Assembly: GCF_964355755.1 (NCBI RefSeq) | Contig: NC_092680.1 | Coordinates: 15,911,001 to 15,975,000 of the forward strand | Length of the DNA stretch: 64,000 nucleotides | Reading direction: 5' to 3' | From: Antedon mediterranea | Lineage: Eukaryota > Echinodermata > Crinoidea > Comatulida > Antedonidae | In this document: positions 39,049 through 60,112 of the stretch, piece by piece | Layout of the letters: every line of letters starts with the position of its first letter | Numbering within the stretch: the first letter of the stretch is position 1 | Notes under the pieces: model-generated | The model's input: the letters and a program-made list of their open reading frames with translations, nothing else | The model's database searches: none | Told to the model about the DNA's origin: nothing | Position numbers and translations under genes: made by a program

Positions 39049-40698
39049 ATGGTGACAGTAAGGACCGTTATCGGAATAGTTGCCGTTAATTTTATATTTT
39101 TAGCAGAATGTACTGTCTTTATCAAATTGGGAGGCCAGGATTTGACAGTCACGCATGGAAAGAATGTTTTGCTTTACTGTCGAGCACCTGAAATCACCAC
39201 ACTAAAGATGTTGCTAGGAAAGCAGGGACAAGTTAATTTATCACTTAAGGATACAACATGGAGTCGTTTTATGTTCATGTGGAACGGAATTAATAAAGGA
39301 TTTGGACTGATACCTATTTCAAGACGTGAAACACAATGTCAATATTTACTGAGGTTTATTCGCTCTATCGCTGGCACAGGTTCTGTTACGGTACTGTCAG
39401 CGCCTGAGGTCGGTTCCCCTTCCTGCACGATGGATATCCCATCATCACATCTTCATGTTGGAGAAGAAGTCCGCTTAACATGCACTTCCAGTGGTGGTAA
39501 TCCGCCAGCTGAATTGCAATGGTCTTCCGGAGGACGTCAAATGCAACAAATCGCAACTAGAAAGTCAACCATAACCCATTTACTAGAACCACCTGATAAC
39601 GGCGCTGTATTCACTTGCACTGCGCGTAGTCGCGCAATGGATCGCCCACGCAGCTGCAGCCTGCAACCACTAAATATCCAACCAACAGTAAGTATTAAAC
39701 CTGTTACTAATTTGGTGGAAGTTGAAGAAACGGCCATGTTTAGATGCAAGGGTGATGGTGTCCCTCGGATTGAAAGTTACAAGTGGTATTTTGGTGACCA
39801 GTTAATAACATCGACGACAGGTAGAATAAGAAAAGTAGGCCGAGAGTTGTACATAGACGAAGTTTTTTGGCGGGATCATAACGTCATTGTTCGATGTATA
39901 GTATCAACACAAAATGGATTGACAGCTAACACGACAGGAGTTGTACGAGTAGTTTATGATCTTGAACCAACAGCGCTCCATGCAGTACCAAATGGAGGAG
40001 GCGGATACATACCACCCATGCCCACGGACCATTCGAATACTAAACAAGTTAGTAGCCTCGTAGTACTAATAGGGCTTGGAATAGCTGGATTATTATTTGG
40101 TACGGGTACAATTATGACATATATAGTCTATGTTAAATTATCTAATAAAAAGGAGAATGAAAGATATGGGCCTTCACTATTAAGAAGAGGTCGTATTGAT
40201 AAACAGGCACAGACTAGTACGAGGCATCGAAGTAAAACGTCGGTGTTTAGCATTTCTTCAGCATCAGGTGGCATTAACAACACTATGCAATCATCAACTC
40301 AAATAGAAGAGAAACCCAGGAATAGTGCGTCATGCCGTCTTGAAAGAGTTCCAAGTGAGGCATATAAACGAGGACAGAGTTTAGTAGCAATAAACGAAGA
40401 AGCGAGTTTGTCGTATGAACAGATAAATCATCCGGATGATGCTGGAAGTTCTTATTATGACTTTTCTGGAGAATATCTTCCTGATATTATTGATTACGAT
40501 GATGTCTCTCTAGAATCTCAGCAAAGTCGTGATAATAAAACAGCTGACATGAATGACTTCTATGAAGCTTTGCGTCCAAATTCTGATTTTCTTGATGATG
40601 CGGACATCAATGAAATAATTGAAGCCGCCATGCGACGAGCATCCCTGACGCGCGATGGCCAACTATTTTACGTCAGTTCGAAAAGTTGGGCTCTTTAA
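39049..40698 (+). CDS. Ig receptor 1: three Ig domains, TM helix, ITIM-type tail
   Basis: A single-exon gene encodes 549 residues of a type I membrane protein: signal peptide (1-22), degenerate Ig1 (about 23-117), Ig2 (about 119-210; Cys145, Trp158, Cys190, plus Cys126/Cys203 outside the core), Ig3 (about 213-303; Cys233, Trp246, Cys283), transmembrane helix about 334-361, and a cytoplasmic tail of about 188 residues. The tail holds two matches to the ITIM consensus, LSYEQI (Tyr456) and IDYDDV (Tyr483), and a further FYEAL (Tyr505). ITIMs recruit SHP-type phosphatases after Tyr phosphorylation, so an inhibitory surface receptor is inferred; the ligand is unknown. The start has a good context (AACAATGG). 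Ig1 lacks the usual Trp and YxC. An AATAAA at 40697-40702 overlaps the stop. Confidence 0.88.
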   Translation: MVTVRTVIGIVAVNFIFLAECTVFIKLGGQDLTVTHGKNVLLYCRAPEITTLKMLLGKQGQVNLSLKDTTWSRFMFMWNGINKGFGLIPISRRETQCQYLLRFIRSIAGTGSVTVLSAPEVGSPSCTMDIPSSHLHVGEEVRLTCTSSGGNPPAELQWSSGGRQMQQIATRKSTITHLLEPPDNGAVFTCTARSRAMDRPRSCSLQPLNIQPTVSIKPVTNLVEVEETAMFRCKGDGVPRIESYKWYFGDQLITSTTGRIRKVGRELYIDEVFWRDHNVIVRCIVSTQNGLTANTTGVVRVVYDLEPTALHAVPNGGGGYIPPMPTDHSNTKQVSSLVVLIGLGIAGLLFGTGTIMTYIVYVKLSNKKENERYGPSLLRRGRIDKQAQTSTRHRSKTSVFSISSASGGINNTMQSSTQIEEKPRNSASCRLERVPSEAYKRGQSLVAINEEASLSYEQINHPDDAGSSYYDFSGEYLPDIIDYDDVSLESQQSRDNKTADMNDFYEALRPNSDFLDDADINEIIEAAMRRASLTRDGQLFYVSSKSWAL

Positions 40699-43659
40699 TA
40701 AATGATAGGAGACTGAATTACTAATATGACTAAATTAATTTTGCAGTACACTGCTCTTTCCAAAATGAAGTAAAGTTGAAAATATATCGACGTTGTTGCT
40801 AAACGTCTTCGATTTTGTTTATTCGCCATGAACATCAAACATTATTAGAAAAGAGAAGAGCGAGATTGATGTCACCCTTCCCCTATTATATTATTTACGG
40901 TAGTTTATTCGAAACGAATTATAATTTAGAAAATTTATGTGAAATCAAAAATATTATTTTCTATTTCAAGAAAGCATTATGCTTTTGGTATACACTTCTT
41001 TCACTTTTTTGAACCCACTATTTGACCTTACATTTTTTGTCATTACTGATTTTTAATCAAATTATCCCATAGGCTTAATATTTAAAAAATGTAATTTCGT
41101 TAATACTATAATACTAACAAGACAGCATTCAGACAAGTATACCACCTTAAGGGAAATGTTAAAATTAGAATACGCGATAAACACACAACTTCCCTTCCTT
41201 CGTAACGGGATTTTCCGGTTATGAATATTAATTTTCTTTATTAAATTATTTTAAATATGGAAAATGAAAAGATTTGTTTTTAAAGTCGAAGTATTCTGGA
41301 AATGACTTCGTTAAAATCTGAAAATATATGTATATTATCACCATTTGTGCTATTAAGTAAAACAAAATTAGCAGCCGATGTTTATTGTTGCCAGTAAACA
41401 TGATGGTATTATATTAGAGTACATTTGAAATGTACATTGTGGTTATGTAAATAAGTAAGTAGCAGTAGTAACGTTATTCCAGTTCATTTAATATACTGTA
41501 CAAACAATAAAGATACAGAATGGAAAAAGAAAATGCAAGCAAGAACAACAAAAGTTTTAAACTTGTGGAAAAGAAAACAAAACATTATATATGTACACGA
41601 TGCATGCAGGCGGGTCTTGCATTGGTGCGGGCACTCACTTGAAACTGTAAAAATATTGATATATAAATAAAGCAAATACAATGTTGTTTTATGTGTAAGT
41701 GTGTGTTCATCACGTTATAGTACTGTAGCTTCAGATTTTAAAAAAATAATGGGAAACAAACATAAAAACGAACAATTACAAGGAATGATTTACCTCAAAT
41801 GAGCTCGTCAACCCAATTTTAGGTTTCTTAAAAAGATATATTTTCAAAATTATTGGAAAAGCTGGATGTGGACCGCTGACTTCTTTTTTGTTGTTAAATA
41901 AAACATGTCACCATTTTAAACAGTTACAGCAGAATTTAAAAAAAAACACACACAGTTTGTCTAAATGGATTAGCAAACCGAAAGGTTAACATAATTATTC
42001 ATTTTTTATTCATCATTATGAATAAGTTGAGTAATTTAAAATTTCATTTTAGATATATACATTTAATTACATGATTACTTATTAACTTTATTAGACCTTT
42101 TAATGTTATATGACAATTATGAAACATTTACTCTTTTAATCTTTTAAAATTGGCAAAGATCCATTTTGACGAAGATTGTGTGTGTATGATTTTAAAGGAA
42201 ATGACGCTATTGAATCTAATTCGGCTGTCCCAAACAGGATGCTAAAATTCGATGAACCTGAAATTATTTAACGCAGCAATAATACAAATGTATGCTAGCT
42301 TTGGTTGAAAAGAATAGCCTAGCTCTACATTTTCTCTCACTTTATATCAAAGCGAATACTAGGATAATCAAACTGGCAATTAAATATAATATACGGAAGT
42401 AGATGAATTTACTGAAAAAAGGGGAATTTAAAACAATGAGTATCATGATGGGATATAAAGAACTCTAGTAGTGAGAACGATACCTTGTACTGATAATGTT
42501 TTGCTGAAACAATACAGTATATTAATTCGCACACAACTTGGCAGAATTCGTTTTAACCTCATAAAACAATTACCTACATTTTTAAATGCGCCTTTAGCAG
42601 TCTTGGGTGGTATGTGCGCTATAAAAATCCTGTTATTATTATTATTATTATTATTATTAGTGTTATTATTATTATTACATATATATTATATTGTTTTATA
42701 TAACACCTAAATAAATGCCTGTCATTTCATCCCAATCATAAAAATTAGTTATTTGTGTAATATTAGTCTACTATTGAACTGCTGTTTACATAAAACACTT
42801 ACTTTAAATTCTTACAAATAAATAGGTAGTAATTTAATGACTTTCGATATGGTGATGTGAATTTCTTTTATTACTATTATTATTATTATTATTATTTCGA
42901 ATAATTTCAGTCCCTGGCATGGTCTCATGAACTCTGTTACGATGAAAATACCTATATTCATTATGGCTACGTTGTGTTTTAACAGGACATGAATAAGACC
43001 GTGGTCGTTCCGATACAGGTTTCCGCACTATCTATGACTCAAACGTCTCTATTGCTCTAATAATGGTCTTTCTGTAAACCAGACTTTAAACAAAAAACCC
43101 TGTATCGTATTAGAATTAGTCCTCCCGCCTGTAAACTGTAATAATACAGGTAGTTGTTATAATGAGATGTATTTATTAGAGATAGGAATATACATCCAGT
43201 TCCCTAGATCAATGGTCTTACTGTTGGTTAGTTGACTTCGTTTAAATTAATGTTATTTCATAGGCCTGTCATCGGATGGTATCATAGAACATTAAATGAA
43301 GGCAATATAAACTCATTACTGTATAACAAACACCACGGAAGACGTGTTTTCAAAACAATGGCCATGAATATGTTCAGAAACTGATTTATATGTTCTAATA
43401 ATTATAATAAAAAAAAAGCACAAGAGAATAGCGTATTCATCAAGAAAATCATGAAATGAATCAACAGCGCCACCTACCAACACACAAATAACTAGAGAGG
43501 GCGATATGGTTTTATAAGTAAATAAAGTCAACGTATATAAGAACTTCATCAAAGTAAGTAGGTAGGTCCATTTCATTTAAATTAATTATGTATTTTTTAT
43601 TATTTTATTATCAGCTCAAAGTTTCATTTTTCCTTTATATATATATATATATATATAGA

Positions 43660-43727
<68 letters not shown>

Positions 43728-44039
43728 TACTTTTCTCTATTCCGACATCACCATAATGACTATATTTAATTGTCCTTTTACGTACGGTGATTTAAAGCCG
43801 AATATAAAATTAAGTCTGCCTAAAAGATCCCAACATTGACACTGTAACAGAAACAATTTAGGTCCATTAGCATAAACATACATGCACATCAAGATGGTTG
43901 ATCGTAGACAGACAAAATAAAAGGTGGCGTAGTTTAGATTCGTATCTAGATGACTGGCAATAGTCAGTTAATGTCTACCTAGTGATAGCTGCAGAATTAG
44001 TGTGCAAAATACAAATGAAAGTATTAACAGCACATTGCC
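40699..44039. other. Intergenic with microsatellites
   Basis: It contains ATT/TTA trinucleotide runs (about 42632-42676 and 42868-42895). The first follows TGTGCGCTATAAAAATCCTG, a common tail context of retroposons. A long AT microsatellite spans about 43637-43728. Apparent frames through the AT tract are artefacts. Confidence 0.5.
43637..43728. repeat. AT microsatellite
   Basis: About 90 bp of near-pure TA dinucleotides with rare G interruptions. Confidence 0.9.
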
Positions 44040-44640
44040 TCACAGCCTGCTTCCTATGGTAGACTTATTCGTTGGAAGATCCGCATGGCACTGACGTTAT
44101 CAACAGAAGTGCTGATAACAGTATATTAAGATGGTGACAAAGGGCAACACGACTCGGCCTACCAGGCATATAATAGGTTACTATATAAAAATGGGATGAA
44201 TAAATGAAGTATCCCAATCCATGTTGTATTATTTCCTGCGGCGGAATACCTGCATGGCACTAAGGTAATAAACGGAAGTATTACTGTACATTAAATGGTG
44301 ACAAACAGTGTGGAATAGCCCACTATACAGGTTGCAATTGGAAATAATGAATACGTGTTAATTATGCTTCCTACGCGTTGGAATACCCGCATGGCACAAA
44401 AGTACTAAACGGAAGCATTATGAGATTACTGGTGAAAGACGGTGGTATGGAATTAACTAAAGTATTGCAAGCACATCAATTGGTGACGTAGCATAATTCT
44501 AATTAGTTACTAAACAGGTTGCTATAAAAAAAAACCTCGTTAGAAGATGACACTAAGGTTATGAACGGAAATATTATTATGACATAATATAAAGACAGAA
44601 AAAAAAATGACAAACTAGCAAACAATGAATGACTTCTTAA
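44040..44640. repeat. Degenerate tandem repeat, about 150-170 bp unit, four copies
   Basis: The block TTGGAA.A.CCGCATGGCAC...AACGGAAGTATTA...GGTGACAAA recurs near 44070, 44245, 44380 and, weaker, 44540. Spacing is irregular and identity is low, so it is an old tandem amplification. It lies between Ig receptors 1 and 2. Confidence 0.65.
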
Positions 44641-46497
44641 AATTGTAGGAATTAAATGTATTACACATTCGTGAGGTGTAATAGTGGTAATGTTGGTTGG
44701 GTGGTTAACACACAGAATAATCAGCACATAGTTATTACACAGTATATTGTATTGGTATTATTAACCACTTCAATGACTATATTATACCGGAACACCAGTG
44801 ATACTATTAAACAATTCCTAAAATCATCGTTAATAATAAAGCAACCAAGACCACAATGATAAGATTAGATCAAGGCAAGATAAATCATGTGCATCATGAT
44901 CATACTTAACTTTAATATGATTGTAACTTTACACTAATATTAATATCTGGTTTGTAATACCAGGGAAGCGTTAATAACATATAATACTCTTCCTTGGTAA
45001 TAATACTACCGTACCTGACATTCATGGTTATGGAGAATGTTTCATTGATAATTGCAATCATATCCTACTGGTGGTAGTTATTGTCAAAACAAACACTGGA
45101 ATGTACATAGGTGTCGGAAGATACATTATGCTATTATATCTTTATCATCAGTTTACTATAGTATTATACTATATTATGTTAATAATATATTATATTGGTT
45201 GTAGACTAGACTAATAAAGTTCAGTAACCAGGTTTTTAGTAACTGTAATCTAGGATACAGCTCATAACTCAAGTTGTCGGAGACACCTGTTTGATATTCC
45301 ATATAAGGAAATTGTTACAGCTTCTTACTAAAGATGATGATGTCATTTGAATTTCATCTTCAAGCCAATTTAATCTTCTTTAAGTTATTTGATGAGATCA
45401 TTATGATCACCCCATTTATCCTGCATAAGAATATAAATAGTGGTACCATATTTAATCAGTCCTAATACGAATACTGATATAGCTAAGCTAAATGCTGTTA
45501 AAGTCTATTAAAGTATCTAGAAGTTTGTTTGTTTTGGAACAACTGAAGTAAAACTGTATACTGTATTAGCCTTGGGTTCAGCTACATTTGTAAGTCTTAA
45601 GGGGCGGGGGGGGGGGGGGGTCGTCATCCGGGAAGAACTTGACATTTAACTTTAACTTGAACCATTTTCCTCATCATCCATTCACAAATGCTTGTAATAT
45701 CAATATGTTTATTTTGTTTTGTTAAAATAAAACGTTCTTGATTCTTAACCATCCCTAATTCTCATACACAGTTCCAGAAATCACGCATCTCGCCCTGGAC
45801 AAACAAAAACAAGTATGAGCTTTGTATTTGGTGCCGATCCATCTCATGGGAAAAAATAGCGTTAAGGCAAGTTAACCTCTCAAAAGGCTATCAAGAAAAC
45901 TGACATCGGATGTGAAATATTATTCATGTAAATGTATTTCCCATAGGAACATATGGATGCATTCACTTTAGTTATTATATAGTCTTAACTGTATTAAGTT
46001 ACAGAATAATACGTAATTTGTTTAATCATACTATTTTATATTGGCCTAAACCAGATTGGGCTCAACTGGTCTCTATATTATGACGACGCATTTGTAATAC
46101 ATGTCACATGGTACCTGTACAGATACGAACAAAATAACATGATTAAAGGGGTGATTCAACTGTTAAAGTTATGAGAATAAAAAGCCTTGTTTACGATGAC
46201 TCAACATACGAATCTGACTTAAATCTTGTTTTACCGGTCGGCCTGTCTGTGTAAAATCAGCATCATCGCTAGCTTCACGAATATGCAAAGCGTCCGTGAC
46301 AACCATTATTCTATTCTAAAGGAAATAATATTATAAAACTGCGTTTGGACTTCAATATCAGATCCACCAACCTTATTTGGTTTATCTAGAAGTGACGTCA
46401 TTTAATTGTTCCTACTGTTATACTTATTCGCTACCTGTGCAGTAATTCAACAATTGGTGGTGGAACTAGCTGTATCACGTTTGACTATCTTTTTCTG
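44641..46497. other. Upstream region of Ig receptor 2
   Basis: No gene is supported. A G20-type run lies at about 45602-45620. The final 110 bp contain a consensus CRE site (46393-46400). Confidence 0.45.
46393..46400. promoter_or_regulatory. Consensus CRE palindrome TGACGTCA
   Basis: The full 8-bp cAMP-response/ATF site lies 98 bp upstream of the start codon of Ig receptor 2. A perfect palindrome of this kind in AT-rich DNA is unlikely to be common by chance, and its position suits a proximal promoter; function is inferred. Confidence 0.4.
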
Positions 46498-48327
46498 ATG
46501 ATCAAGATGATGTATAAAGCAATATTATTGACTCTATCAGTGTTTCTTCAGCTAGCAAATGGAATCGATTTTCTAATAAGGCCTTCAAATAAGCGTGTAC
46601 TTGTCGGTATGTCAGTTACACTACGGTGTTCTTTTTCGAATAAAGGTAGTGGTAATACCGTTTACTGGTATAGACCAGAAACAGAAAAATATATATCTAA
46701 CAATGAGAATCTCTACACACAAATGCCACGGTATCAAATAATTGGAAACACGGGTGAGTACTCTCTTCAAATTACCAATATTCAAGTGACAGACGAAGGG
46801 GAGTATAGATGCGGATTCTTTAAGAATGGTATGTTTACTTATGCACGAGCTGTTATTGTTGTACTGGTGACTCCGGCTATGGGAAACCCAAAGTGCTCAA
46901 AGCGCCCATCGTCAATGCTACGGCCTGGGGATTCTGTTAGTCTGATATGTCAATCATCAGGTGGTCGTCCTCCAGCCTCGTTGCGTTGGTTCCGAGGTGA
47001 TCAAGGTATGATCGGTACATCTCGAATATCCCCTAACGAAATTATGACGGTTCTGCAACCGGGTGACAATGGAAGGAAATTTGTTTGCAAACTTACTCAT
47101 GAAACGATAAACGCACAAAGAACTTGTAGCATTATTCCGTTGAAGATTTTACCTGTTGTTATTGTAAATCCTGACGCTCTGACCGTGGACGTCGGACAAG
47201 ATGCTTCATTCCGATGTGACGCAGAGGGAATACCACGTATCAACAAAATAACATGGTTAGTTAACAACACATTGGTAGTTAACGGAATGCACAACCGTTT
47301 CGTACTAAGACAAAACTCAATTGTTCTCATAATTAGGAACGCAACGCTTATGGACGATAACACGGTTGTCACGTGTCGGGCCTCAACACCAAACGGTTTG
47401 ATCGGCTCGGACACTGGGATATTATTTGTAATTAAGGGCTATATACCAAAGACTACTTTGGCAACGACTATAATACAGACAGGCGCATTCACTACAGATT
47501 TAGAAGAGAAAGATTATGTCAACGAAGACGGAAACAACACAAAAGAAATTTTAGGAACATTTTTTGGTGTAGTTTTAGCGTTCCTAATTGTTGCAACTGT
47601 TCTATTCATAACCGTTCGCTTGTGTGAGAAACGGAAAAAAGCCAATGAAATGAATATGTCTCAGTTGCGAGGCAACGGCTCTGTGTATTCGATGACTAAT
47701 GAATATGGCCCAGCACCGACTGTCACAGATCCCGATCCCAGTAAATACAAAACCCTCGGAATCGAGGGAAAGTTACCGTCTGTTTATCAAAACCTGATCG
47801 AGAATACAACGAACCCGGCAGTTGTGTCCCAAATATCCGGATATACAAACGGAGGGCCAATAGTGGATAATTTAACAAGCACTGGACTGCAGCACTATGA
47901 AGTAGTAGTGTCAAAGAATGATTCACTTGATGATGAAGATATTAACGATTATGAAACGCTAGGTCGTGATGGTAACGGTATCGTTGGCCGTGTTCCTCCA
48001 CAGAGACGATATGACACTCCGGCTTCGGTGCTGTCTCCGATTAACAACAATACCCATAATGCAGACATTGGAGAAACCAATGCTTTTGATGGTACGTACG
48101 AGATTCCAACTGCCGTCAAATCGCAAGGTCTTCGAAAATCAGATACTCTTGATAGTAAAGGCTATGTTTGTCCTAAACAACTTTATATTTCGCATTCTAA
48201 AGCAGATTCAACCGATAATTTATTAGAGAGTAGTTGTGACATTGGGGTACAGGATTATGTTGATATGGAAACAAAAACTCGATCAATTATATATCAACAG
48301 TCGATAGAATGTCTCGATCAAACATAA
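46498..48327 (+). CDS. Ig receptor 2: three Ig domains, TM helix, tyrosine-rich tail
   Basis: A single-exon gene for 609 residues: signal peptide (1-22), V-type Ig1 (Cys44, Trp57, DEGEYRC ending at Cys105), Ig2 (Cys151, Trp164, Cys197; extra Cys133 and Cys210), Ig3 (Cys240, Trp253, Cys293), transmembrane helix about 350-374, and a 235-residue tail. Tail tyrosines: SKYKTL (Tyr417) and SVYQNL (Tyr430) match the ITIM consensus; HYEVV (467) and DYETL (485) are near matches; YDTP (505) and YEIP (534) suit Crk-type SH2 domains; YVDM (587) suits PI3-kinase p85. This suggests a receptor with both inhibitory and adaptor-recruiting signals. The first ATG has a weak context; Met4 or Met5 may also be used. 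It is a paralogue of receptors 1 and 3. Confidence 0.9.
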   Translation: MIKMMYKAILLTLSVFLQLANGIDFLIRPSNKRVLVGMSVTLRCSFSNKGSGNTVYWYRPETEKYISNNENLYTQMPRYQIIGNTGEYSLQITNIQVTDEGEYRCGFFKNGMFTYARAVIVVLVTPAMGNPKCSKRPSSMLRPGDSVSLICQSSGGRPPASLRWFRGDQGMIGTSRISPNEIMTVLQPGDNGRKFVCKLTHETINAQRTCSIIPLKILPVVIVNPDALTVDVGQDASFRCDAEGIPRINKITWLVNNTLVVNGMHNRFVLRQNSIVLIIRNATLMDDNTVVTCRASTPNGLIGSDTGILFVIKGYIPKTTLATTIIQTGAFTTDLEEKDYVNEDGNNTKEILGTFFGVVLAFLIVATVLFITVRLCEKRKKANEMNMSQLRGNGSVYSMTNEYGPAPTVTDPDPSKYKTLGIEGKLPSVYQNLIENTTNPAVVSQISGYTNGGPIVDNLTSTGLQHYEVVVSKNDSLDDEDINDYETLGRDGNGIVGRVPPQRRYDTPASVLSPINNNTHNADIGETNAFDGTYEIPTAVKSQGLRKSDTLDSKGYVCPKQLYISHSKADSTDNLLESSCDIGVQDYVDMETKTRSIIYQQSIECLDQT

Positions 48328-48667
48328 GAAAAGTGAATTATCTCAAAAAGTTTCCGTGAAAATTACGCTCAAGGTTTACAGATATAAATACTGTTTTTAG
48401 TAGGCCTACTTAAAACTATTTTACGATTGAGTATTTATTAAGTACGTATTAATTTCATGTTATACGTACATAACCTCTGTGTAGACAAAAAACGAGTAAA
48501 GCACTGTTTACAATATGAAACTTCATGTGGCAACAAATATGCCCATATAATAATGATAATGTCATATCACTAGTTTAGTATATCATATTTGGCAGATCAC
48601 ACTTTTTGTCAAACTAGTTTGATAGTGTAGACAGAGCTTTGTTAAGTAGCCATATTGCATTAATATT
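48328..48667. other. Region downstream of Ig receptor 2
   Basis: No gene. No AATAAA lies close to the stop, unlike in the other single-exon genes. Confidence 0.4.
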
Positions 48668-48943
48668 GATCCCCACTTGGACGCAATGCAATGACGTATG
48701 TACAACCCAAATGTGTTGACCAATCACATGCGATGAATTATTATCGCTAAAGCTTGGTTCCCACTAGAACGCAACGCAAGGACGTAAGCCGCAACGCAAG
48801 CGGATTGACCAATCCAAGCGATGGATTATGCGAACCGTTCCTTGTGATTGGTCAATTCGTTTGCATTGCAGCTTACGTCCTTGCGTTGCGTTCTAGTGGG
48901 AACCAAGCTTTACGTTGCGTTGCGTCCAATAGTGGGAACCAAG
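48668..48943. mobile_element. Older foldback MITE, split by a younger copy
   Basis: Diverged ends, CCCCACTTGGACGCAATGCA (from about 48670) and TTGCGTCCAATAGTGGGAACC (to about 48940), are inverted versions of each other. They resemble the ends of the element at 48748-48912, which lies inside. This is a self-nesting of one MITE family. Confidence 0.65.
48748..48912. mobile_element. Young foldback MITE, 41-bp perfect terminal inverted repeats
   Basis: The left arm 48748-48788 (TAAAGCTTGGTTCCCACTAG...) and right arm 48872-48912 are exact reverse complements over 41 bp. TA is present at both edges, consistent with a TA target duplication (Tc1/mariner-like or related). The internal part is also palindromic in places (TGACCAATC/GATTGGTCA). 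The reading frame 48754-48948 is a by-product. Confidence 0.85.
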
Positions 48944-48995
48944 TATAATTATTCGTACAAGATTACTGTAATTGTTAAATTGCCTTCATTAACTA

Positions 48996-49801: not shown

Positions 49802-52800
49802 ATTATATGCTGTAAATGAATGTACAAATACAATAGTTGTTATTGTTAATGCATTTTTATTAATTAATTGTATTATTCATAACCTGATCACGTTATATTG
49901 TAAACATGTTTTGTTAATTATAAATAATTGAAATAATATTAATAGTGTTACATCAATGGCCTGCTTAGTGTCACAGTATTCCCCTGGAGGGCTCAGTTCA
50001 TGACTCAATACATCGATTGTTAGTCGTGGGAATATTGAAATTCTAAAGAATCAGAAAAGGGGAGTAGAAGAGGTTTAGGCTAACAGCCTACGATAACAAG
50101 ATGAACTGTAACTCAGACGATATATCAATCATTCAAAATGACCCTAAATAAACCGTACTATAACTCCACTAATTAAAAAAATCCGAACACACGGGACACT
50201 ATTTTGAGAAACAAACGAGATGAATATGTCTTTTTTTAATTTTGAAAGTGTGTCCTGAAGCCGATTTTCGATGCACTAGGCAACAGAATAATTTTAGAAT
50301 ATGTGAACTCCAAGGAGGTATTTTCATAATGAATAGCATTTATTATGATACCAGATAACTACAGATATTTTAAATGATTTAAAATCAAGGTAGCATTGTT
50401 ATATAACTGTCCATACGTACGTCAATCCTTTCCCGCGTCCTTCCTGTCAGATAAGTTTAAAGGCTATTCTTCACATTAAAATAATATTACTAAAAGTCAA
50501 ATTGTAATTTCACGAGATACTAGGACTAATACAGTACACAGACTGTGCTAAACTTCCTTCCGAGGTCACAAAAATCCGTTTGTAAGTATATTGTGATATG
50601 AATGTTGGATGTCTATTTAAGTACAGTACTGTGACCATCTATGCCTAATAGCACAATAAAAAATTCTTGTTTAACAGAGACACCACCCCCCCCCCCTCCC
50701 CGCCTCCCACAACCCATTGTGACGTACAGCTGAGGAGTTTATGGGGCCTCTGGTCTCTGCTCTCGAAACACTAAATATTTACTGAATTAAAACATTTTCT
50801 TAAATGGTCTAAGTATGTTGTTTTATACCACAGGTGATAGCAGTGGTATTAAAAACTTCTAATTCATAAATCTTATTCACCCTAGTTTTAAATAATATAG
50901 TAAGTATAGTTATTAATAATAATTATGAGTAGGCCTATAATAAAAAGGCCATATACATGGCTGCAGTCACGTGCTCAAGTTAATGATTACCGACCAACCG
51001 ACCGACCAACCGACATATGAGCTGTAGAGTCGTAAAACCATTATATTTGTAGCTCCTATTATTTTGACAAATTTTATTGTTTATTTAAACAAACTAACAT
51101 GGTAATTAATTGATATATATTGGCGTTTATTTCGAAGTAGCCCTTTTATTATTTAAGTATTAATGAATTAGGCAAGTTTAGTCTCCTTCTATAACAAAAT
51201 GATTAAAGCGAAAATGAAACATAATTTGAACCTGTAGTCGGTATCACCAATAACATCTTTTGGTCATCGGCAATGCGTTTTTTTAATACTTTTTGTTATG
51301 GCCTACTACCTAAATGTCCTACCTTTGATTATTATCGTAAACATAAGCATAAATCTATAAACTGGCAGACAGTTGTAAATTTTAAAACTGATTTCGATGT
51401 GGTGGTGTATAATGGTTCATTTTTAAACGATAACATGCAATATGGTTTTACGCTTTCAAAAATTGGATTCATCAAAAAGGTTAAGTAAGTTACCCTTTAA
51501 CAGAAATACATTTCAAGGGTTCAATTTGCATAATATTGTTCTAGCCCTATTTAACTATGAACTATTATCATTTTAGGAAACCGGAGCACTCCCGAGTTCG
51601 TGCGAACCTCTAGTTGCTTTACTTCCTTCCATGTTAATTGTGCAATGCTTGCTCACAGAAAAACAAGTACATCTGTCAGCTAATCACTAAATAGAACCAA
51701 CCACTTGATAACATTAAGAGAAATCTGCACAAACAACTTTTGAGTCATTGCATCGTTTATGATTAATATAAAGTTCCATTTTCTTGATCCATATTCTAAA
51801 TGTTTCGTTTACCATGTAAGAAATGTGGCCAGTTAACCTATGCTTGTGAATTCATTTCCAGGATATATGGAAGGTGATGTTGACCATGAGTTGATCGTGT
51901 ATCATCTAAAACAATTGAATCTCTGTCGGCCGGGCATAAATAGATTTAGATGAACAATAAATTGCTGTTACATCAGCTGTCCATGTCGCCAACAGGGCAG
52001 GGCTAGTAGCAGTTTGCGCCAATGCGGGATTTGGAAGAAAGTGGTTGTTGCACAGAACAATTGCTCTGGGGTTCCACTCCGTGTACTCTTAAAGCAATTT
52101 TCTATGGTCAATTATAAACCACATACTAATCTACCAAGAGACAGATCACTTATATAAATAATGGTCTTTAACGGATTTAAGTTAATGCAAATCCACCTGC
52201 ATAAGCTTACAAGTATCGTAGTCATGATTTCGGTTGAAGGTTGTTTTTTTAACATGTTTATTTACAAAAAATACCAATAATTTTTAACAAATACCATAAT
52301 AGTATAGCTAAATATACAAGCTTATATTTAGCGTTTTTTTATTAGCAGGAAACTAATCGTTTGTGTCAAAATACAACTTCCGAAAGTAATAATCGAAATC
52401 ACGTCCAAGTGCATTACACCGTTTAAAAACAATACGAATCTAATTCATTTTTAAATTCTTCCAAAATGTATTATCATATGTGGCACATGCAAGAGAAATA
52501 AGTAGATTCGCATCGGTAGATTTGTAGACGGCCAAAACAATATGAGGCTGAACATTTTTTTTTTCGATAATATTTATTTACATTCCCTTGTTGTTTTTCT
52601 ATTTCGAGACAAATGAATGCATGAATTTTGTGTCGTATGTGGTTTAAACATTTTTCCAATGTGTTGATTTTGAAAAAAAAATGTTTGCATAATAATAGAA
52701 CGATAGTTAATGAACGAAGGTTCATTGAAACACAACACTTTTGACAAGGCGTAAACTTAAACGCCCTGTTTATTTTGTTGTACTTTCCTGTTCCTTAATT

Positions 52801-53539
52801 TTATCAGCAATTTGCTCAAAACACTATTATTGTAACAACAAAACTTTAGACTAAAGATATGTTTTCAGCATTTTAAATCTTGGATTATGTAGTTTCTCAA
52901 TTTTGAAAATTCTAATTTATGTCCGATTCCGTTTGCCTGTGATACATATTGCTTTTCGTATGAACTTTTGCAGCTAAAGTTTTCTAATTATTTCTAACAA
53001 GGACTAGGCCTTTATTATATATTACATTGTACCAACAGTGTACGTTCTATTACTTTTTGAATTATCTAAGGATATTAAATCTTAATTTTATTGTTTTCAA
53101 AACTATAACAATTACCAAAAGACAATTAAAGAAGTATCATGATTTTCATTTTATTGCATCCTGACTTTGTGTAAGACATCCTTGGAAAATGATAATAATG
53201 ATGACACCACAAAAATAGCCTGCGATGGCGATAACCACAATGCCTTTCTAACGGAAATGACCATTACCAATAATAACTTTTAATCGTGAAAAATGTCGCC
53301 GATAACAATAGTGTACACTTTTTGGGAAAAGAGTAGACATAAGACTACGGCCAGTTGAATTATTCAATTGCACTTTCCAATATAGGCCTAATAATAACAA
53401 GCAAATCTAATTTGTATGTGATCCGTCCAGAATACCAATATTATTGGTATCACTTGTTGTTTTATAGTGTACACTACAGGTGCTGTTTAATGTCTACCTA
53501 TGGAAATAGCAAATTAATACCTTCGGAGGCTTTTCCGGG
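49802..53539. other. Intergenic, nothing recognised
   Basis: A C-rich run lies near 50687-50705. The frame at 51273-51488 (71 codons) has no recognisable feature and is not called a gene. No RNA gene was seen. Confidence 0.4.
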
Positions 53540-54030
53540 AAGGGTAGAGGGGGGGGGGGGTGGGCTGGGGGTTATTCGAGAGGCGTTTATTTGGGTGTAA
53601 TATGCTAACATGTATACAGTAATCAAATAAATACTGTACCCCCTTATAGATATGAAACAATACAACACCATTAAAATACAGTAAAAATATTTGGTAAATC
53701 ATAGATCACGTCAATCAATGAATTATAACAATAGAAATGTGTTATTATAATACAATATTGTGTGTATGCATGTGGCGGGGCTTTTATTCGAGTGGACGTT
53801 TATTCCAAATGATTTTCTTTAGGGGAGTGGGGGTGTTAATTAGAGGGAGACGTTTATTTAAATTATTATTATTATTATTTATTGCCAAAAACCAGTTACA
53901 AACATACAAAAACACAGAAACTAAGGGAGTAGGCAGGAACCTAAAAGTGAACCTAATCACTATAACAAGAGTTCAGGTTCCGTACTCCCAAAGTAACAAC
54001 AATGATATAGGACGTTTATTCGAATAAATG
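53540..54030. repeat. Degenerate CGTTTATT repeat region with LINE-tail-like stretch
   Basis: (G/A)CGTTTATT(C/T) occurs at about 53583, 53800, 53850 and 54013 within G-rich context. The interval 53865-54000 resembles a retrotransposon 3' tail on the minus strand (ATT repeats, then TGCCAAAAACCAGTTACAAAC). The boundaries are weak. Confidence 0.35.
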
Positions 54031-55331
54031 TAACAACAATTATATAAATTGAACAACACAAAATAAAAAAAAAAACATATAAAAATATTTCCAGTAAATT
54101 GTGTTCATTATGATGAAGAATTTACAAACACTTAGCAAACAAGACTGTGTCGTCGTATAGTTCATTGACTTTTGCAATTCTAAAACTGTAATGTCTAAGT
54201 AAAATAAAACAAAAATACATTTGAAAGTTAAATTTTGAGATTACGATACGTGAACATACTGTACCGAAGTACTGGCGTTTAAAGGAATGACTATATCGTT
54301 TCCTTACTTTAATGGGTTCACAGACACACCGACATCATTGTGGCATGGTCGATGCTGACTAAGGCCCCACGGGAAATCCTACCTTGCAGCTGCGACTACT
54401 GCTAGGAGAACACTAACTGCATTTGGAGTGCCATTTCCTAGGTAAACTACATCACGATGTCACCAATCGAGCCACTAAACTGTGATCTAACAAATTCAAA
54501 ACATTATTATTATAATGTGCTGCATAGGGCCTACTCTCCTAATGTAAAATAATGTCTGTGGAATAATAATATATTATATTCTCTCTTTTGTTTTTTTTTT
54601 ATATGAAATAAAATATTGAACTGATTTTTATAAGACACAGGACATTCGTTGTGTACTGGTTTATTTTATTTAGTGTATCCTTGCTATCTGGTTAGATAAC
54701 ACACCTGTGTAGATTCCTATTATTTGATTATTGGGAGATTGTGGGGCAAATGATATTAATTGATTACTAATGCAGCTAGTAATCAGCGCAAAGTTATTTC
54801 TTGATCTAACCGTCATTTTATTGTCACAAAATAGTTATTTTACCTGTCAGACAATGGTTTTGGGGTTTCTTTTCTATTTTATATGCTGGTCAAGCACATC
54901 ACAAGATGACAGTTTTATACTTTTGCTTTTCCGCTACTCCCCTGTTATACTTATATGTTTGTTTTTTTACTATGTAGAAAGATTGAAAATAAATAAAAAT
55001 AAATAAATATGTGAATAAATATTATTTTGTTGTTACAGAAGTGAATACTCAATTTCACTTTAGTTAATTTTATTGCTGTCTGGGGGTCACTTTATCACCC
55101 TAGATATTTCAAATGTGAATTATCCTATTACAAACACAAACTTTAATGGACTGTTTCGATAATAATTCAATGAATAACTGACAGTGAATTACAGTCAAAA
55201 GTCAGTATTATAGTCAAATAGGACTCATAAATACCAGAAATGCTTTGGGATTTGTAATTTTAGCATGACATGTCCTAATAGACTCTTTTCCCAGACGTTT
55301 TTTGGGTCTAGAAGCTGGAAATCTATAAATT
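54031..55331. other. Intergenic, nothing recognised
   Basis: No supported gene. A 78-codon hydrophobic frame at 54770-55006 has no further support. Confidence 0.4.
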
Positions 55332-55783
55332 ATAGTGGAGTTTCCATTTTCGCAAAACTGTCGTCCTTAGAACTATAACTGCTGCTTACTTTAGCTTCTG
55401 ATTGAGTAGTCCTAATGGGACGTAGCGGGCTAGAGCAGCAGCGTGAAAAATGCAAGGCAAGTGGCAATTTGGGATGATATAATAATATCTTGCGTTTTTC
55501 TTATACCGATATTTAATTTTTATATGCAAAAATAAAAATAAAAATTTGAATAACAATGAAGTTAAAGTTATATGGTAGGCCTACTGTATTTGTGTTATGT
55601 TATATTTTTATATGTACAATAATGATTAAGAAATGATGAATGGATTTATTACATGGTTAAAAATTATAGTGGAGTTTCCATTTTCGCAAACCTGTCGTCC
55701 TTAGAACTATAACTGCTGCTTGCTTTAGCTTCTGATTGAGTAGTCCTAATGGGAGGTAGCGGGCTAGAGCAGCAGCGTGAAAA
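55332..55783. repeat. 120-bp direct repeat, two copies 332 bp apart
   Basis: TATAGTGGAGTTTCCATTTT through GCGGGCTAGAGCAGCAGCGT is present at about 55333-55445 and 55665-55777 with only a few base changes. The high identity implies a recent duplication, or two copies of a short mobile element. Confidence 0.85.
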
Positions 55784-56639
55784 AAAAAACAGAAGCTGAA
55801 GGAATCAAAGTACATTTAAACTCCGGCGTTTTTAGGTCAAAGGTCATCATCACACGATCATGATTTCTTCACTTTTATTTTAAATAAATTTAAATATTTG
55901 TGCAAAATATATAGCAGTTTTAAAAAATAAGAGTATGGAAAAAATGATTATATGACTTCTGAGTAGTAAATGCTTATTAGACTATACAAAAATTAGTAAT
56001 TTATAAAAAGATTCTAATGATCGTCGTCGCATGTAAACAAACATAATAGAGGGCGGTATTTACGATTTTACTTTAGACTCCCGGTTGCTAGGTCGTTATG
56101 AATGTTCACCGACCATGGAGTATCTCCAGGGTTCCTCCGGAGTTTTCCTGCTGAGTTTGATGTGAAACGGGTAGTATTGAACGTAATAAAACCTGATACC
56201 TAACATATTGTTGTTTCTCCTTTTTATTCTTTATAGTTATGAAATATCACACGTCTATCTGATGCTAATTGTAATTTTTCTAGGAGATATTTTCATATAT
56301 CAATTTAACACGAATTTTTTTTAATTTTGATATGCATAGGAGACAAGATACCATATTTTTAACAGGTGAATTCAAACATTAATATAATTATTAATATTGA
56401 TTGTGATGTTTATGTGCATTATTAGTAAAGTCGGTGCTTCTAAGGTAACACAACTGAACCCCGTTCATATTGTCGGTGAACTGGAAATACAATTAGTGAA
56501 CTCGGAGTAGAACCATTTATCGGTATTGACAGTGAATTAACTCACTGGTCTTGGAAATGAACTTGATGCCAGTATTCCGCCTGGGAATACCGCCCTCAAG
56601 ATGATGAACATATTTTAGTTTTATTTTCCAAACGTCCTT

Positions 56640-57085
56640 TGATTGTTGAAGCTATTTTTTTAATTTTTATTTTATTCATTTCGGCAATAAACATAAAATA
56701 ATAGTTACAAAAACATAGAAAAATAAATATATATGAAGGACAACACACGAAGCCGAGGAGAGACAAAAGCATTAAACAAAACGCTGTCACCGGTAAGGTG
56801 TGTGTCTCTCCAACACAAAAATTACAAATAACAAGAATATAGGCCTATACTAAAATAACAGACATTTCACAAGATAGAAAAAAGGATTTAAAAAGTTAAA
56901 AAGTTTCTCTCAGACATTTAAAATAAAGCTTTAGAGATAATTTAAAATTAATAAATGAACCATTAACAAAAATATCGCGAATCTCATTGGGTATGGAATT
57001 CCAAGTTCTAGTGAATCTGGTCGGGATGCAACATTTTGACATATCATTACTGGAGCGAAGATGCTTGAACGTGACTTTTCCTTTA
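56640..57085 (-). pseudogene. LINE 3'-end remnant
   Basis: On the minus strand from about 57085 to a stop at 56896-56898, the frame reads FKHLRSSNDMSKCC, RFTRTWNSIPNEI and LKLYFKCLRETF. The R..R.WNSIP..I motif followed by a basic helical tail is the usual C-terminal end of CR1/L2/Jockey-like ORF2 proteins. A 3' untranslated part with AATAAA and a T-rich (A-rich on minus) end follows to about 56640. The reverse transcriptase itself is absent. Confidence 0.6.
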
Positions 57086-58297
57086 AATATTCACTTTTCT
57101 CCGTTGTTATTTACTTTATTATGATAATTATGTTTTTGTTTTTTATAATTGTTTGTTGATTGTTTCATTTTTGTTGTGTTTGGACACTTTGATTTAAATG
57201 TTTATTGATCGGCCGTCCATACATTTTGACTATAATTTTACACGTGTGGGACATATTTATGCAATTTATAATATACATAACAACTAATTAAATTTCTTTT
57301 ATTTGATTTAACGACTGTGGGTCGTTAAATAGTACCTTTTTCCGTTTGTTGACTAATATTGCAAAACAATTATATATATATTTGTTTTTTTATAATATTA
57401 AATATTATATTTATTTGGATTGTATAAGAACACCTACTGTAGTTATAAGTATGTCAACAAACGACCAAAACACTTCATGCCTAGCTAGGCTAGCCTAACT
57501 ACTAATAGGTCACGTTGAAATATAACCTTTCACCCTTCACATCAGGGCATTACCTGTACCACTACTCATACACATTCATTTGTATATTATTTAATAGACC
57601 TGTATTATTATTATTTCAGATAAATACATATAAGCATGTTTACTATAGAAATTACTAGGCCTACAACATACCCATTACGTAATGAAATACATTCTGACAA
57701 AAGGCCTATATATACGAATATATAACAAAATAAACATTCGTCAAACGTTTTGTCATACATACAAATACAGTAGGTAGGTTAAATTTTCAATAATAAACAT
57801 ATATTAATCAAATTTTAATTAATTATTCAATCCTTACATATTACTAATTAGATATAATTAATTTGACTACTTCTGTTTGTGATTCAGAGAAACTTTAAAT
57901 GATGTCTTCCCCTCAAATAAACGTGTGTCCGGTGAGATTTAAACAAGGACACGTTCATTCTAATTTATATGGCCATTTCTAGAATAGGGAACATTAACTT
58001 GATTGGTGACCTCTGAAATACGTGTGTATAATTGTGTATGTCGTCGTCGCCTGGGCCCGAAACAAACTGTGTCGAGTATTAAACGGTTCAACTTTCTCGC
58101 ATGCGCACAATGCATTGACTTCCTAAATTGTCGTTAGTGAATCCATAAAAATACAATTTTGATTTCCAATTATTTTTATAAATAATACGCAAATGCAGCC
58201 TTTTATTGTATAGCTGGCTAGAACTTAAATCTTATCTACCATGAGTAGATTTATGGACAATACATTAAATGAAATAAATATTTATATCAAGAAAACT
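57086..58297. other. Intergenic, nothing recognised
   Basis: AT-rich with TAGGCC motifs near 57480-57500 and a dispersed-repeat fragment near 57400 shared with 12530. No gene is supported. Confidence 0.4.
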
Positions 58298-60112
58298 TTA
58301 TTTTACACTGTTTCTTATTTCGGCATATTCATTGCCTCGCAATCTGAGCAAAACTTGCATTAATGTAGGTGAATCATACGGTTTTTCTTTAAATTCCAAA
58401 TCTGCGTAAACTAAGACATTTTGCTGATGTATTTTCAACCGTCCAGGATGTGTTTTCCGTTTATCATCTTGTTCGGACATCGCTGCGAGACTCACTTTCC
58501 CAACTGAATCGCCTCTGACACGTCCACAGGTCACCGGATGTGATTCACTCTGACACACAATGCTTTTAACAGAGCAATTGTTTGAACTATTTGTTGTAAT
58601 ATTGTTATATGACCCATCTTCAATTACAATTTTAGGCTTTATGAACAGTTTTTTTTTCGATTTTGGTGATGGTTCTTCATCGATTGCTACTAAATCATAG
58701 AATGGTTCGCAATTACTTTTACCTGCTGTTTTGTTTTCAAGTGCAAATCTAACGCGTTTCTGTTCGTTTGGAGTTGACGAATTTCTATTAAGGTTTCGAC
58801 TTATTCTTGCAAACAGTTGCATGAAACTAAATCTACCATCTACTGTTGAGGCATTTTGTAGGACTGCATCCGATTCTCTGGGCGGTGCATCCCTGCTGAT
58901 AGATTGTTTTTTTTTTCGAATAATTATAACCGCAATTACAACCATTGCCAATATAAGAACACCTCCTCCGGCTAATCCACTCCCCAGTTCAATATTGCTA
59001 CGTAGTCTCCCCTTACTATCAGGTACATACGCGTTAGTAGTGTCCTTGTAGTATACAGATGTACTGTGGGTACGTGGAATAATGTTTTTAATTGTAGTGG
59101 TAGGCGAAGAAGGAATCACCACACTTGGGCTAGGCAAAGACACGTGTAATACAGCATGCGTCGAAACACGTCGTCTGGTGTCGGTAATAACTTCGCACAT
59201 GATGCGGGTTTTGTCGTCACCGGGTTGAATATTTTTTATTTGTAATATTTTACGTTCGTTTATTAACTCAACACGTCGACTAGTTAGTAACATATTGTTG
59301 GTAATTGACCAACTATAACGTGGTCGTTCGGTTGTTTTTAAACCTTGCACATTGCAGGTAAAACGGGCTTCCTCCCCTACTTGTGTTCTGAATATAGATG
59401 GCGAGATATGTACCTTTAACGACGCCTTTTGTGGGAAAATAAGGGGTACAATCCTACATGACTTATATTGACCTGTTATTAAGTCAGTAACGTTGCATAT
59501 AAAAGCAACACCATAATCGTCATGTGATAAAATGAAATTATATGACAGATACTGATCCCCAACTATGTTTACTAGTGTTGCTCCGTGTCTGCTCCACGTA
59601 ATTTGTGTATTAGGGGTTGTTCCTGCCGAACCGGCATCACAATTCAAATCGACTGAATCGTAAGGTGCGATCAAGTCTAGCGATTGATCAGCGTAGCAAT
59701 TGGGATGCACCTCCACCGTTGAGTCCCGAAACACATCTAATTTAGCTGATTGTAGGCTATGTACAGTTGTATTTCTAATGTATCCACATGTATACATCCC
59801 AATATCAGTCACTTGCACATCAACAATGTTAAGATCAAAAGTGTTACCCGATAAAGGTGTTACGGAATAGCGACTTCCAAGTTTAGAATCAAGCAGTCTA
59901 TTAATCTGTCTATCATAGCTTAGTATTGTCTGCGATCCATATTTCCATATAACTAGTTCATTAGATCCTTTATCTGCAATTTCACAACGAAGTCGGACGA
60001 TTTGAGACGGTGACGCAGCGAAGTGTGTAGGTCCTAATATAAGGCGGATGCCGGTACATTCACACATAACCAGAAACACACAGAACAATGTACAAATACT
60101 TGAAGTCTTCAT
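58298..60112 (-). CDS. Ig receptor 3: three Ig domains, TM helix, ITIM-type tail
   Basis: The start is placed at the ATG at 60112 (604 residues); the open frame extends 15 bp further upstream but only to a GTG. The protein has a signal peptide (about 1-20), V-type Ig1 (Cys43, Trp56, TDIGMYTC ending at Cys109), Ig2 (Cys158, Trp173, Cys206; extra Cys139 and Cys219), Ig3 (Cys253, Trp268, Cys306), a Ser/Thr/Pro-rich stalk, a transmembrane helix about 379-398, and a basic-start tail. LVYADL (Tyr569) is an exact ITIM, and EYAEI (Tyr596) near the C-terminus and FYDLV (Tyr472) are near matches; YDSP (579) suits Crk-type SH2. An inhibitory receptor is inferred. AATAAA lies 6 bp after the stop. Orientation is opposite to receptors 1 and 2. 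Confidence 0.9.
   Translation of the reverse strand: MKTSSICTLFCVFLVMCECTGIRLILGPTHFAASPSQIVRLRCEIADKGSNELVIWKYGSQTILSYDRQINRLLDSKLGSRYSVTPLSGNTFDLNIVDVQVTDIGMYTCGYIRNTTVHSLQSAKLDVFRDSTVEVHPNCYADQSLDLIAPYDSVDLNCDAGSAGTTPNTQITWSRHGATLVNIVGDQYLSYNFILSHDDYGVAFICNVTDLITGQYKSCRIVPLIFPQKASLKVHISPSIFRTQVGEEARFTCNVQGLKTTERPRYSWSITNNMLLTSRRVELINERKILQIKNIQPGDDKTRIMCEVITDTRRRVSTHAVLHVSLPSPSVVIPSSPTTTIKNIIPRTHSTSVYYKDTTNAYVPDSKGRLRSNIELGSGLAGGGVLILAMVVIAVIIIRKKKQSISRDAPPRESDAVLQNASTVDGRFSFMQLFARISRNLNRNSSTPNEQKRVRFALENKTAGKSNCEPFYDLVAIDEEPSPKSKKKLFIKPKIVIEDGSYNNITTNSSNNCSVKSIVCQSESHPVTCGRVRGDSVGKVSLAAMSEQDDKRKTHPGRLKIHQQNVLVYADLEFKEKPYDSPTLMQVLLRLRGNEYAEIRNSVK

Follow-up and report, generated by a model that had tools for sequence, protein, structure and literature searches.

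Three single-exon Ig receptor genes of a crinoid are members of a large family that includes arrays with divergent outer domains and near-uniform tails

Three intronless immunoglobulin (Ig) receptor genes lie within 21 kb of one another in the crinoid Antedon mediterranea, in a stretch of 64,000 nucleotides of contig NC_092680.1 (the window). What are these genes, and do their tails mark them as inhibitory receptors of an expanding recognition family, as a sequence-only reading of the window had proposed? The explanation we favour, with a probability of about 0.58, is that the trio belong to a large, germline-encoded set of receptors whose tips vary and whose outputs are shared. The features of the three genes are as follows.

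39049-40698, + strand: gene 1, single-exon receptor of 549 aa, a single open frame of 549 codons
40057-40119, + strand: TM of gene 1 (hydropathy), followed by a 192-aa tail
40408-40425, + strand: LSYEQI, gene 1 tail
40489-40506, + strand: IDYDDV, gene 1 tail
46498-48327, + strand: gene 2, single-exon receptor of 609 aa, a single open frame of 609 codons
46882-47133, + strand: gene 2, part of domain 2 between P-x-C (Cys133) and Cys210, the second of its additional cysteines, both included
47548-47610, + strand: TM of gene 2 (hydropathy), followed by a 238-aa tail
47740-47757, + strand: SKYKTL, gene 2 tail
47779-47796, + strand: SVYQNL, gene 2 tail
58298-60112, - strand: gene 3, single-exon receptor of 604 aa, a single open frame of 604 codons
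58919-58981, - strand: TM of gene 3 (hydropathy), followed by a 206-aa tail with a dual tyrosine motif at its end
58397-58414, - strand: LVYADL, gene 3, first half of the C-terminal dual motif
58316-58333, - strand: NEYAEI, gene 3, second half of the dual motif

All three genes are intact and single-exon, as had been claimed. Their frames of 549, 609 and 604 codons are far above the longest stop-free runs in base shuffles (156, 169 and 162 codons for genes 1, 2 and 3; 500 shuffles per gene). The proposed signal peptide and single TM are seen in each protein as an N-terminal hydrophobic leader and one TM segment, judged by hydropathy only, and the five tyrosine strings first quoted (those listed, NEYAEI apart) were all located. 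Three Ig domains are found in genes 2 and 3, where Pfam matches V-set, Ig_2 and I-set stretches in succession (the middle domain of gene 2 being C2-type), but not in gene 1, whose first domain is degenerate. In gene 1, Pfam Ig_3 matches two stretches only, and domains 2 and 3 are recognisable. The conserved W and D-x-G-x-Y-x-C are absent from its domain 1 in the alignment, and its seven best matches among relatives all begin at residue 94 or beyond. A frameshift behind this odd domain was ruled out because no alternative frame shows an Ig domain there.

The family is far larger than the window. When five proteins were searched against this genome, the 359 match rows merged into 151 loci on nine chromosomes, array neighbours of equal frame length being counted separately. 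The census converged, with 68 matches and no new locus from the fifth query. C3 carries arrays of 52 and 21 loci, and the C11 region of the window has 21. Frames of at least 400 aa are present at 144 of the 151 loci, 140 of these with a stop-free match, and five loci of the family contain stops. The claim of an expanded family is upheld by 151 single-exon Ig receptor-like loci in this genome. The family plan is one coding exon, three Ig domains, a P-x-C ... C pair in domain 2, a TM and a tail. L022 (C11:2.11 Mb) departs from it, with 1048 aa and repeated V-set matches in Pfam, and L058-L060 appear two-domained by eye. Tail length ranges from 7 aa to several hundred, a few members being almost tailless. 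Among the matches listed from the open-access literature, outside which most subscription journals fall, no such family is named.

The suggestion that a retrocopied founder was duplicated locally fared less well. Pairwise identity among the three window genes is 24-33%, and they are not grouped in the family tree, in which most deep forks have weak support. This identity and the scattered positions rule out a recent triplication. Since the single-exon structure is found across the family, a single-exon founder, whether retrocopied or not, is older than the window cluster. No multi-exon parent gene turned up in the protein searches of the genome, and the founder may or may not have been a retrocopy. 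The protein nearest to gene 3 among its relatives (40% identity) stops short of the dual motif; a simple premature stop there was ruled out, as no tail-like stretch was found downstream. BLAST of the gene 1 and gene 2 tails against 39 family tails gave no match, and the gene 3 tail gave none at E 0.01.

A germline-encoded recognition repertoire would look like tandem arrays with divergent outer domains and near-identical TM and tail. Four arrays on C3 (A, B, C and D, with 10, 4, 9 and 11 genes read) were compared; divergence among the three genes of the window is too great for such a comparison. Fourfold-site differences in the signal peptide and domain 1 (D1) are 0.37, 0.56, 0.43 and 0.33 in arrays A to D, and in the TM and tail 0.06, 0.06, 0.05 and 0.18. 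Of 142 gene pairs, 133 differ more in D1 than in the TM and tail. Domain 1 is divergent in all four arrays and domain 2 likewise in three of them. The likeness of the TM and tail extends to silent sites, a sign that the 3' coding part has been homogenised within these C3 arrays, most simply by gene conversion. The flanks of array A, the sole array checked for this, are also divergent (mean identity 0.55 over 250 bases upstream and 0.54 over 200 downstream), which places the homogenised tract within the coding part of the genes. Its edge falls between D1 and D2 in array A only, and within D2 to D3 in arrays B and C; in array D even D3 and the TM have diverged at silent sites.

Purifying selection on the tails is borne out in the four C3 arrays (pN/pS 0.09, 0.13, 0.08 and 0.19 in A to D). 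In D1, where silent sites are near saturation, pN/pS is 0.50, 0.55, 0.64 and 0.41. Positive selection on D1 was looked for by pN/pS in arrays A-D and none was found. With no dN/dS above 1, the divergence of D1 does not demonstrate adaptive diversification. A fuller version of the favoured explanation is possible, if on the doubtful side: a germline repertoire of about 150 single-exon genes with a variable tip and a constant stem, in which repeated conversion within the coding sequence keeps the TM and tail uniform per array and leaves the V-type domain old and varied. Conversion, in place of rearrangement or splicing, would then maintain varied recognition behind a common output, and a given cell might express a single member or a few. 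In array A, the one checked, the upstream flank of the V-type domain would likewise have stayed old and varied.

The tails had been called inhibitory-type. Tested against shuffles of its own tail, the number of ITIM strings has a probability of being equalled or exceeded of 0.02 in gene 1, one of whose three strings is at the membrane edge, 0.27 in gene 2 and 0.30 in gene 3. With two of the three genes near chance, support must come from relatives. The first 25 tails contain 12 strict ITIMs against 9.8 expected, and 572 of 2000 shuffles were as high, so there is no enrichment. In a set of 39 tails of at least 60 aa, which includes 20 of the first 25 and whose members are related to one another, enrichment of strict ITIMs is moderate (29 vs. 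17.6 expected; 10 of 2000 shuffles as high). YxxPhi in general (91 vs. 53.3) and YxxP (42 vs. 22.8) are more prominent, no shuffle of 2000 being as high for either. The part of the claim that stands is an enrichment of SH2-type tyrosine motifs in the 39 tails, with inhibition as a putative role. The ITIM label is weak for genes 1 and 2 and better for gene 3.

The C-terminal dual tyrosine motif occurs in five of the 39 tails, those of gene 3 (C11) and four relatives on C7 and C2. SIRP-alpha and CD33-type Siglecs carry tandem tail motifs like this LxYA[DE]L ... YAx[IL] pair. A comparison of the dual motif with solved proteins gave nothing meaningful (best E 0.19). As in ITIM-type receptors, extracellular Ig domains, one TM helix (by hydropathy) and a cytoplasmic tail are present. 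The family also resembles vertebrate SIRP, Siglec, PECAM and KIR in its long- and short-tailed forms, and the genome has an SHP-type gene, known from exon order alone (two SH2 then PTP exons in order, C3:14.097-14.105 Mb, + strand). It differs from them in that the crinoid genes are single-exon and their tails mostly carry other tyrosine motifs.

Each gene encodes a type I membrane receptor: the signal peptide is followed by a V-type Ig domain at the tip (D1), a second Ig domain that has two additional cysteines, an I-set domain and a TM helix, and the tail is usually long and rich in tyrosines. We infer ligand binding, phosphorylation, docking and an immune role for the family along the following lines. 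The outer domains would contact a ligand on a microbial, self or non-self cell surface, and the tail tyrosines would be phosphorylated by Src-type kinases. SH2 proteins could then dock: in members such as gene 3 the ITIM-like pair would take up an SHP-type phosphatase, and other members would bind adaptors through YxxP. The variety of recognition would come from outer parts that stay different from one tandem copy to the next, while repeated homogenisation of helix and tail in each array would give many specificities a common output. If the genes are expressed in immune cells, they would make up a very large repertoire of invertebrate Ig receptors that signal through phosphotyrosine tails. The family is well suited to testing how variable recognition domains stay separate from a shared signalling output in evolution, and bears on whether ITIM-type inhibition by Ig receptors predates vertebrate paired receptors. 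No splicing is needed, so each gene can be directly cloned and tested.

The ectodomain raises a different explanation. The extra cysteines of domain 2 (Cys133 and Cys210 in gene 2) are conserved without exception in the 25 members aligned and probably form a disulphide, as judged from the alignment; both lie within predicted strands of an AF2 model of the gene 2 ectodomain (mean pLDDT 89). Fold searches matched three-Ig proteins (lowest Foldseek E 5.3e-20; VIA Z 14.3-18), a fold common to many Ig proteins. The best neighbours in both searches are mainly neural adhesion proteins (DIP, IgLON, nectin-like) at 17-23% identity; SIRP-alpha is at Foldseek rank 20 and VIA Z 14.2. By sequence, gene 3 has weak matches to solved structures, mostly antibody light chains (best E 0.0028). 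The genes may be related to a family absent from the Foldseek and VIA matches. The fold neighbours are among the evidence against the favoured explanation, together with the lack of dN/dS above 1 in D1, the shifting tract boundary, the unenriched strict ITIMs of the first 25 tails, the unmatched tails of the window genes and the relative of gene 3 that has no dual motif. These neighbours suggest an expanded set of homophilic or heterophilic adhesion proteins for tissue or nerve patterning, modelled on DIP/Dpr, IgLON, nectins and clustered protocadherins, with tail tyrosines that lead to adaptors and not to immune inhibition. Clustered protocadherins are arrays of single-exon ectodomains with common tails, which the crinoid arrays recall, and YxxP outnumber strict ITIMs in the 39 tails (42 vs. 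29). Strings of three Ig domains are, however, alike regardless of role, identity to the adhesion proteins is 17-23%, and the domain 2 cysteine pair sets the crinoid proteins apart. IgLON and DIP proteins are mostly GPI-anchored, with no long signalling tail, whereas the window genes have a TM segment and tails of 192-238 aa. A family of 151 loci with tails of 7 aa to several hundred would also fit recognition better than fixed wiring. We consider an adhesion code unlikely.

Recognition of self versus non-self tissue, as by Hydractinia Alr or Botryllus fester/FcoR, differs from the favoured explanation only in the ligand. The reviews describe the same broad plan of an Ig tip, tyrosine motifs and clustered genes (PMC11999971, PMC12065747). 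The Botryllus fester co-receptors (FcoR; 53 loci) are, like the crinoid proteins, type I Ig receptors (520-610 aa) of a large invertebrate multigene family, with a V-type tip and a long tail that carries ITIM, hemITAM or core YxxI/L/V motifs (PMC12065747). FcoRs are alternatively spliced and have a sushi domain between the V-type and C2-type Ig domains (PMC12065747), whereas the crinoid family has one coding exon per gene and 151 loci on nine chromosomes; Pfam finds no sushi domain in the three window proteins and six further members. The Alr family (41 members) also comprises invertebrate Ig receptors; their domains are of the V-set and I-set types, and ITIM/ITAM motifs have been reported in them (PMC11999971, PMC12065747). 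Compared by description only, Alr is one allorecognition complex, and the crinoid family consists of dispersed clusters of single-exon genes with homogenised tails. This spread over nine chromosomes, and the lack of an obvious use for tissue fusion if the animal is solitary, make an allorecognition role improbable. The oyster receptor CgIgIT2, with a tyrosine activation motif and reported microbe binding, differs in its five Ig domains and ITAM and is reported as one protein, not as a family this large (PMC11999971). Neutral multigene churn, in which tandem duplication and conversion tracts happen to fall 3' without selection for variable recognition, could draw on the varying tract boundary and on a D1 that may merely sit outside the tract, given its pN/pS below 1 and the equally divergent array A flanks, but is improbable, given that 140 of 151 loci keep a frame of 400 aa or more whose match has no stops, that the tails are constrained and that the contrast has the same direction in four arrays.

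The host had been taken for an invertebrate deuterostome. Eleven chromosome pairs would be unusual for an echinoderm, as most echinoderms have a diploid number of 36-46 (PMC3308324); a literature search gave no crinoid karyotype, and COX1 had no match in the assembly. The gene content of the genome suggests a deuterostome. A hemerythrin search of the genome was without a match, and sialyltransferase matches are many.

The receptor genes in the window are a real finding, and one larger in extent than the sequence-only reading reported. The three intact single-exon frames claimed there were confirmed:

Gene 1: 39049-40698, forward strand, open frame of 549 codons
Gene 2: 46498-48327, forward strand, open frame of 609 codons
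Gene 3: 58298-60112, reverse strand, open frame of 604 codons

When bases were shuffled (500 times per gene), the longest stop-free runs were 156, 169 and 162 codons for genes 1, 2 and 3. Hydropathy bears out the claimed leader and single transmembrane (TM) segment, with one hydrophobic leader and one TM per gene. The claim of three Ig domains each holds for genes 2 and 3, in which Pfam identified three consecutive Ig stretches, and not for gene 1, which has two. The alignment shows neither the central tryptophan nor the D-x-G-x-Y-x-C motif in the first domain (D1) of gene 1, and the best seven BLAST matches of this gene begin at residue 94 or later. A frame change does not explain the defective D1; the other frames restore nothing. 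A tblastn of family members in hand against the window found no additional copy or fragment. Directly upstream of gene 1, a 632-codon frame encodes a reverse transcriptase (RVT_1; 35112-37010, forward strand), and another retroelement fragment, with a zf-RVT domain, lies at 62183-63808 (reverse strand). The window also encodes a single-exon rhodopsin-type 7TM receptor of 305 aa (10784-11701, reverse strand).

An expanding receptor family had been proposed, and the paralogue count gives at least 151 loci in the window's own genome (354 Mb searched, in 11 contigs between 22 and 41 Mb plus 7 small ones), more than first reported. The count merges five protein queries at E ≤ 0.001, gene 2 (70 matches), gene 3 (50), a member on chromosome C3 (95) and two on C7 (76 and 68), and is a lower bound because only the best candidates are scored; the fifth query, the second C7 member, added no new loci. 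Frames of at least 400 aa occur at 144 of the 151 loci, with the match stop-free in 140 of these; seven loci have frames of 273-391 aa, and five contain stops. The loci lie on C3 (90), C11, the window's contig (28), C7 (15), C2 (8), C6 (4), C5 (2), C10 (2), C8 (1) and C9 (1). The largest array, at C3:18.70-18.91 Mb, holds 52 loci (four with stops), the next 21 (C3:11.78-11.90 Mb), and the window sits within a 21-locus group at C11:15.81-16.13 Mb.

Four tandem arrays on C3 (A-D) were read whole. The contrast between outer domains and cytoplasmic tails covers these arrays, the divergence of the window genes being too great for such a comparison.

Table. Mean amino-acid identity, fourfold-site differences and tail pN/pS in the C3 arrays (order A, B, C, D)
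Genes: 10, 4, 9, 11
Identity, signal + D1: 0.54, 0.46, 0.50, 0.64
Identity, D2: 0.92, 0.64, 0.65, 0.69
Identity, D3 + stalk: 0.87, 0.86, 0.89, 0.74
Identity, TM: 0.96, 1.00, 0.99, 0.91
Identity, tail: 0.97, 0.98, 0.98, 0.94
Fourfold differences, signal + D1: 0.37, 0.56, 0.43, 0.33
Fourfold differences, TM + tail: 0.06, 0.06, 0.05, 0.18
Gene pairs with D1 > TM + tail at fourfold sites: 44/45, 6/6, 35/36, 48/55
Tail pN/pS: 0.09, 0.13, 0.08, 0.19

The per-domain identities therefore place much variation in D1 only in array A, and in D1 and D2 in arrays B-D. In array A, which the flank comparison covers, both flanks diverge (250 bases on the upstream side, mean identity 0.55; 200 on the downstream side, 0.54), and thus the two ends of the homogenised tract fall within the coding sequence. 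D1 likeness is no predictor of D3-to-tail likeness in arrays A and B (Spearman 0.08 and -0.26) and is one in C and D (0.66 and 0.56). Conversion inside the arrays would be the simplest cause of the uniform 3′ coding part. The 52-locus array (C3:18.701-18.914 Mb) consists of a block of 25 minus-strand loci, then a block of 27 plus-strand loci, a layout that may be relevant to how conversion runs. Judged by pN/pS, the tails in arrays A-D are under purifying selection. We found no positive selection on D1 in these arrays (pN/pS 0.50, 0.55, 0.64 and 0.41, with silent sites near saturation).

The claim of ITIM tails fared unevenly: strict ITIMs ([SIVLT]xYxx[ILV]) exceed the expectation from 2000 shuffles in a set of 39 tails and show no excess in a first set of 25. 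The first set comprised the 30 loci from gene 2's search minus seven (L012, L015, L021, L023 and L025, cut, broken or duplicate; L027 and L029, near-copies), plus a representative gene from each of arrays A and B; it holds 12 strict ITIMs against 9.8 expected (572/2000 shuffles as high), i.e., no enrichment. With 20 further loci fetched, a gene from array C and another from array D added, and L055 (a near-duplicate) and two loci without a TM segment left out, the second set came to 44 tails. The 39 of at least 60 aa contain 29 strict ITIMs against 17.6 expected (10/2000 shuffles as high); the two tests are not independent because 20 of the 25 tails recur in the second set and the tails are related. 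YxxPhi (91 against 53.3) and YxxP (42 against 22.8) were matched by 0/2000 shuffles, and YAKP has 10 copies across 6 of the 39 tails against 0.1 expected. A YA[KQM]P-type motif, of the YxxP class, recurs across the tails of L054, L062, L063, L064, L066 and L070 (one to three per tail) and is probably an adaptor-docking site. Four members (L005, L007, L011, L024) have tiny tails of 7-17 aa.

A C-terminal dual motif, LxYA[DE]L and then YAx[IL] 21-27 residues on (tyrosine to tyrosine), ends five of the 39 tails: gene 3 (LVYADL, NEYAEI), two C7 members and two C2 members. It resembles the tandem motifs of SIRP-alpha and Siglecs; a profile search against solved proteins gave no meaningful match. 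On the gene tree, which has 39 rows and is well supported at 5 of its 36 inner branches, three changes account for the dual-motif genes, where shuffled labels require a mean of 4.8. Two results count against the motif: the nearest relative of gene 3 (40%, C11:15.98 Mb) stops short of it, and among other tails those of genes 1 and 2 had no match and that of gene 3 none at E 0.01.

Eight positions are invariant across 25 aligned ectodomains, including P131, C133 and C210 (gene 2 numbering). C133, close to where D2 begins, and C210, close to where it ends, are an additional cysteine pair; both lie in strands in the AF2 model of the gene 2 ectodomain (25-row alignment, mean pLDDT 89), and we infer a disulphide between them. 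Departures from the three-Ig plan are L022, which is longer, and L058-L060, two-domained in appearance by eye. The closest solved structures to the gene 2 model are DIPs, IgLONs and nectin-like 4 (17-23% identity; Foldseek E down to 5.3e-20; VIA Z about 14-18). Sequence comparison matched gene 2 to CD276, SYG-2 and neurotrimin (an IgLON), and gene 3 only weakly to some antibody light chains. All these matches are general Ig likeness. The main rival to a recognition repertoire is an adhesion code; we judge a recognition role for the family likely (0.58), slightly lowered because the boundary of the homogenised tract is not fixed. PMC11999971 reviews invertebrate IgSF members, including Alr and oyster CgIgIT2, and PMC12065747 treats Botryllus FcoRs. 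Among the open-access literature matches listed, none names such a family.

A candidate effector is encoded on the C3 plus strand, where SH2 matches (at 14097618, 14098416 and 14100440; two domains) come first and PTP matches (14103067, 14104357) lie downstream of them; this predicted SH2-SH2-PTP order is that of an SHP-type phosphatase. We found no hemerythrin match in the genome, which is no proof that the gene is absent. GT29 sialyltransferases form a very large family (at least 150 exon-level matches, some with stops), partly clustered, e.g., at C7:20.77-20.89 Mb, C9:6.93-7.21 Mb and C5:11.69-11.83 Mb; that the Ig receptors might bind sialylated glycans is no more than speculation. The abundance of GT29 matches and the missing hemerythrin match together point to a deuterostome. 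A complement of 11 chromosomes may suit a crinoid; PMC3308324 puts most echinoderms at 36-46 (diploid), and 11 is the number in two bryozoans (PMC10290214, PMC12902671).

Elsewhere in the genome many Ig_3 matches fall in exon-sized frames, and single exons are therefore no general trait of its Ig genes. One dense group of such frames, at C8:4.70-5.78 Mb, is another expanded Ig family, probably multi-exon. A locus on C9 (22126300-22134400; L075:969-4964) has one 1331-codon frame with a long non-Ig part, Ig-like stretches near the C-end and an Ig_3 match. Frames of 1342-1377 codons occur on C1, C5, C6 and C10 among the Ig_3 matches listed, and such long frames are perhaps a second, dispersed family of intronless Ig-bearing genes.
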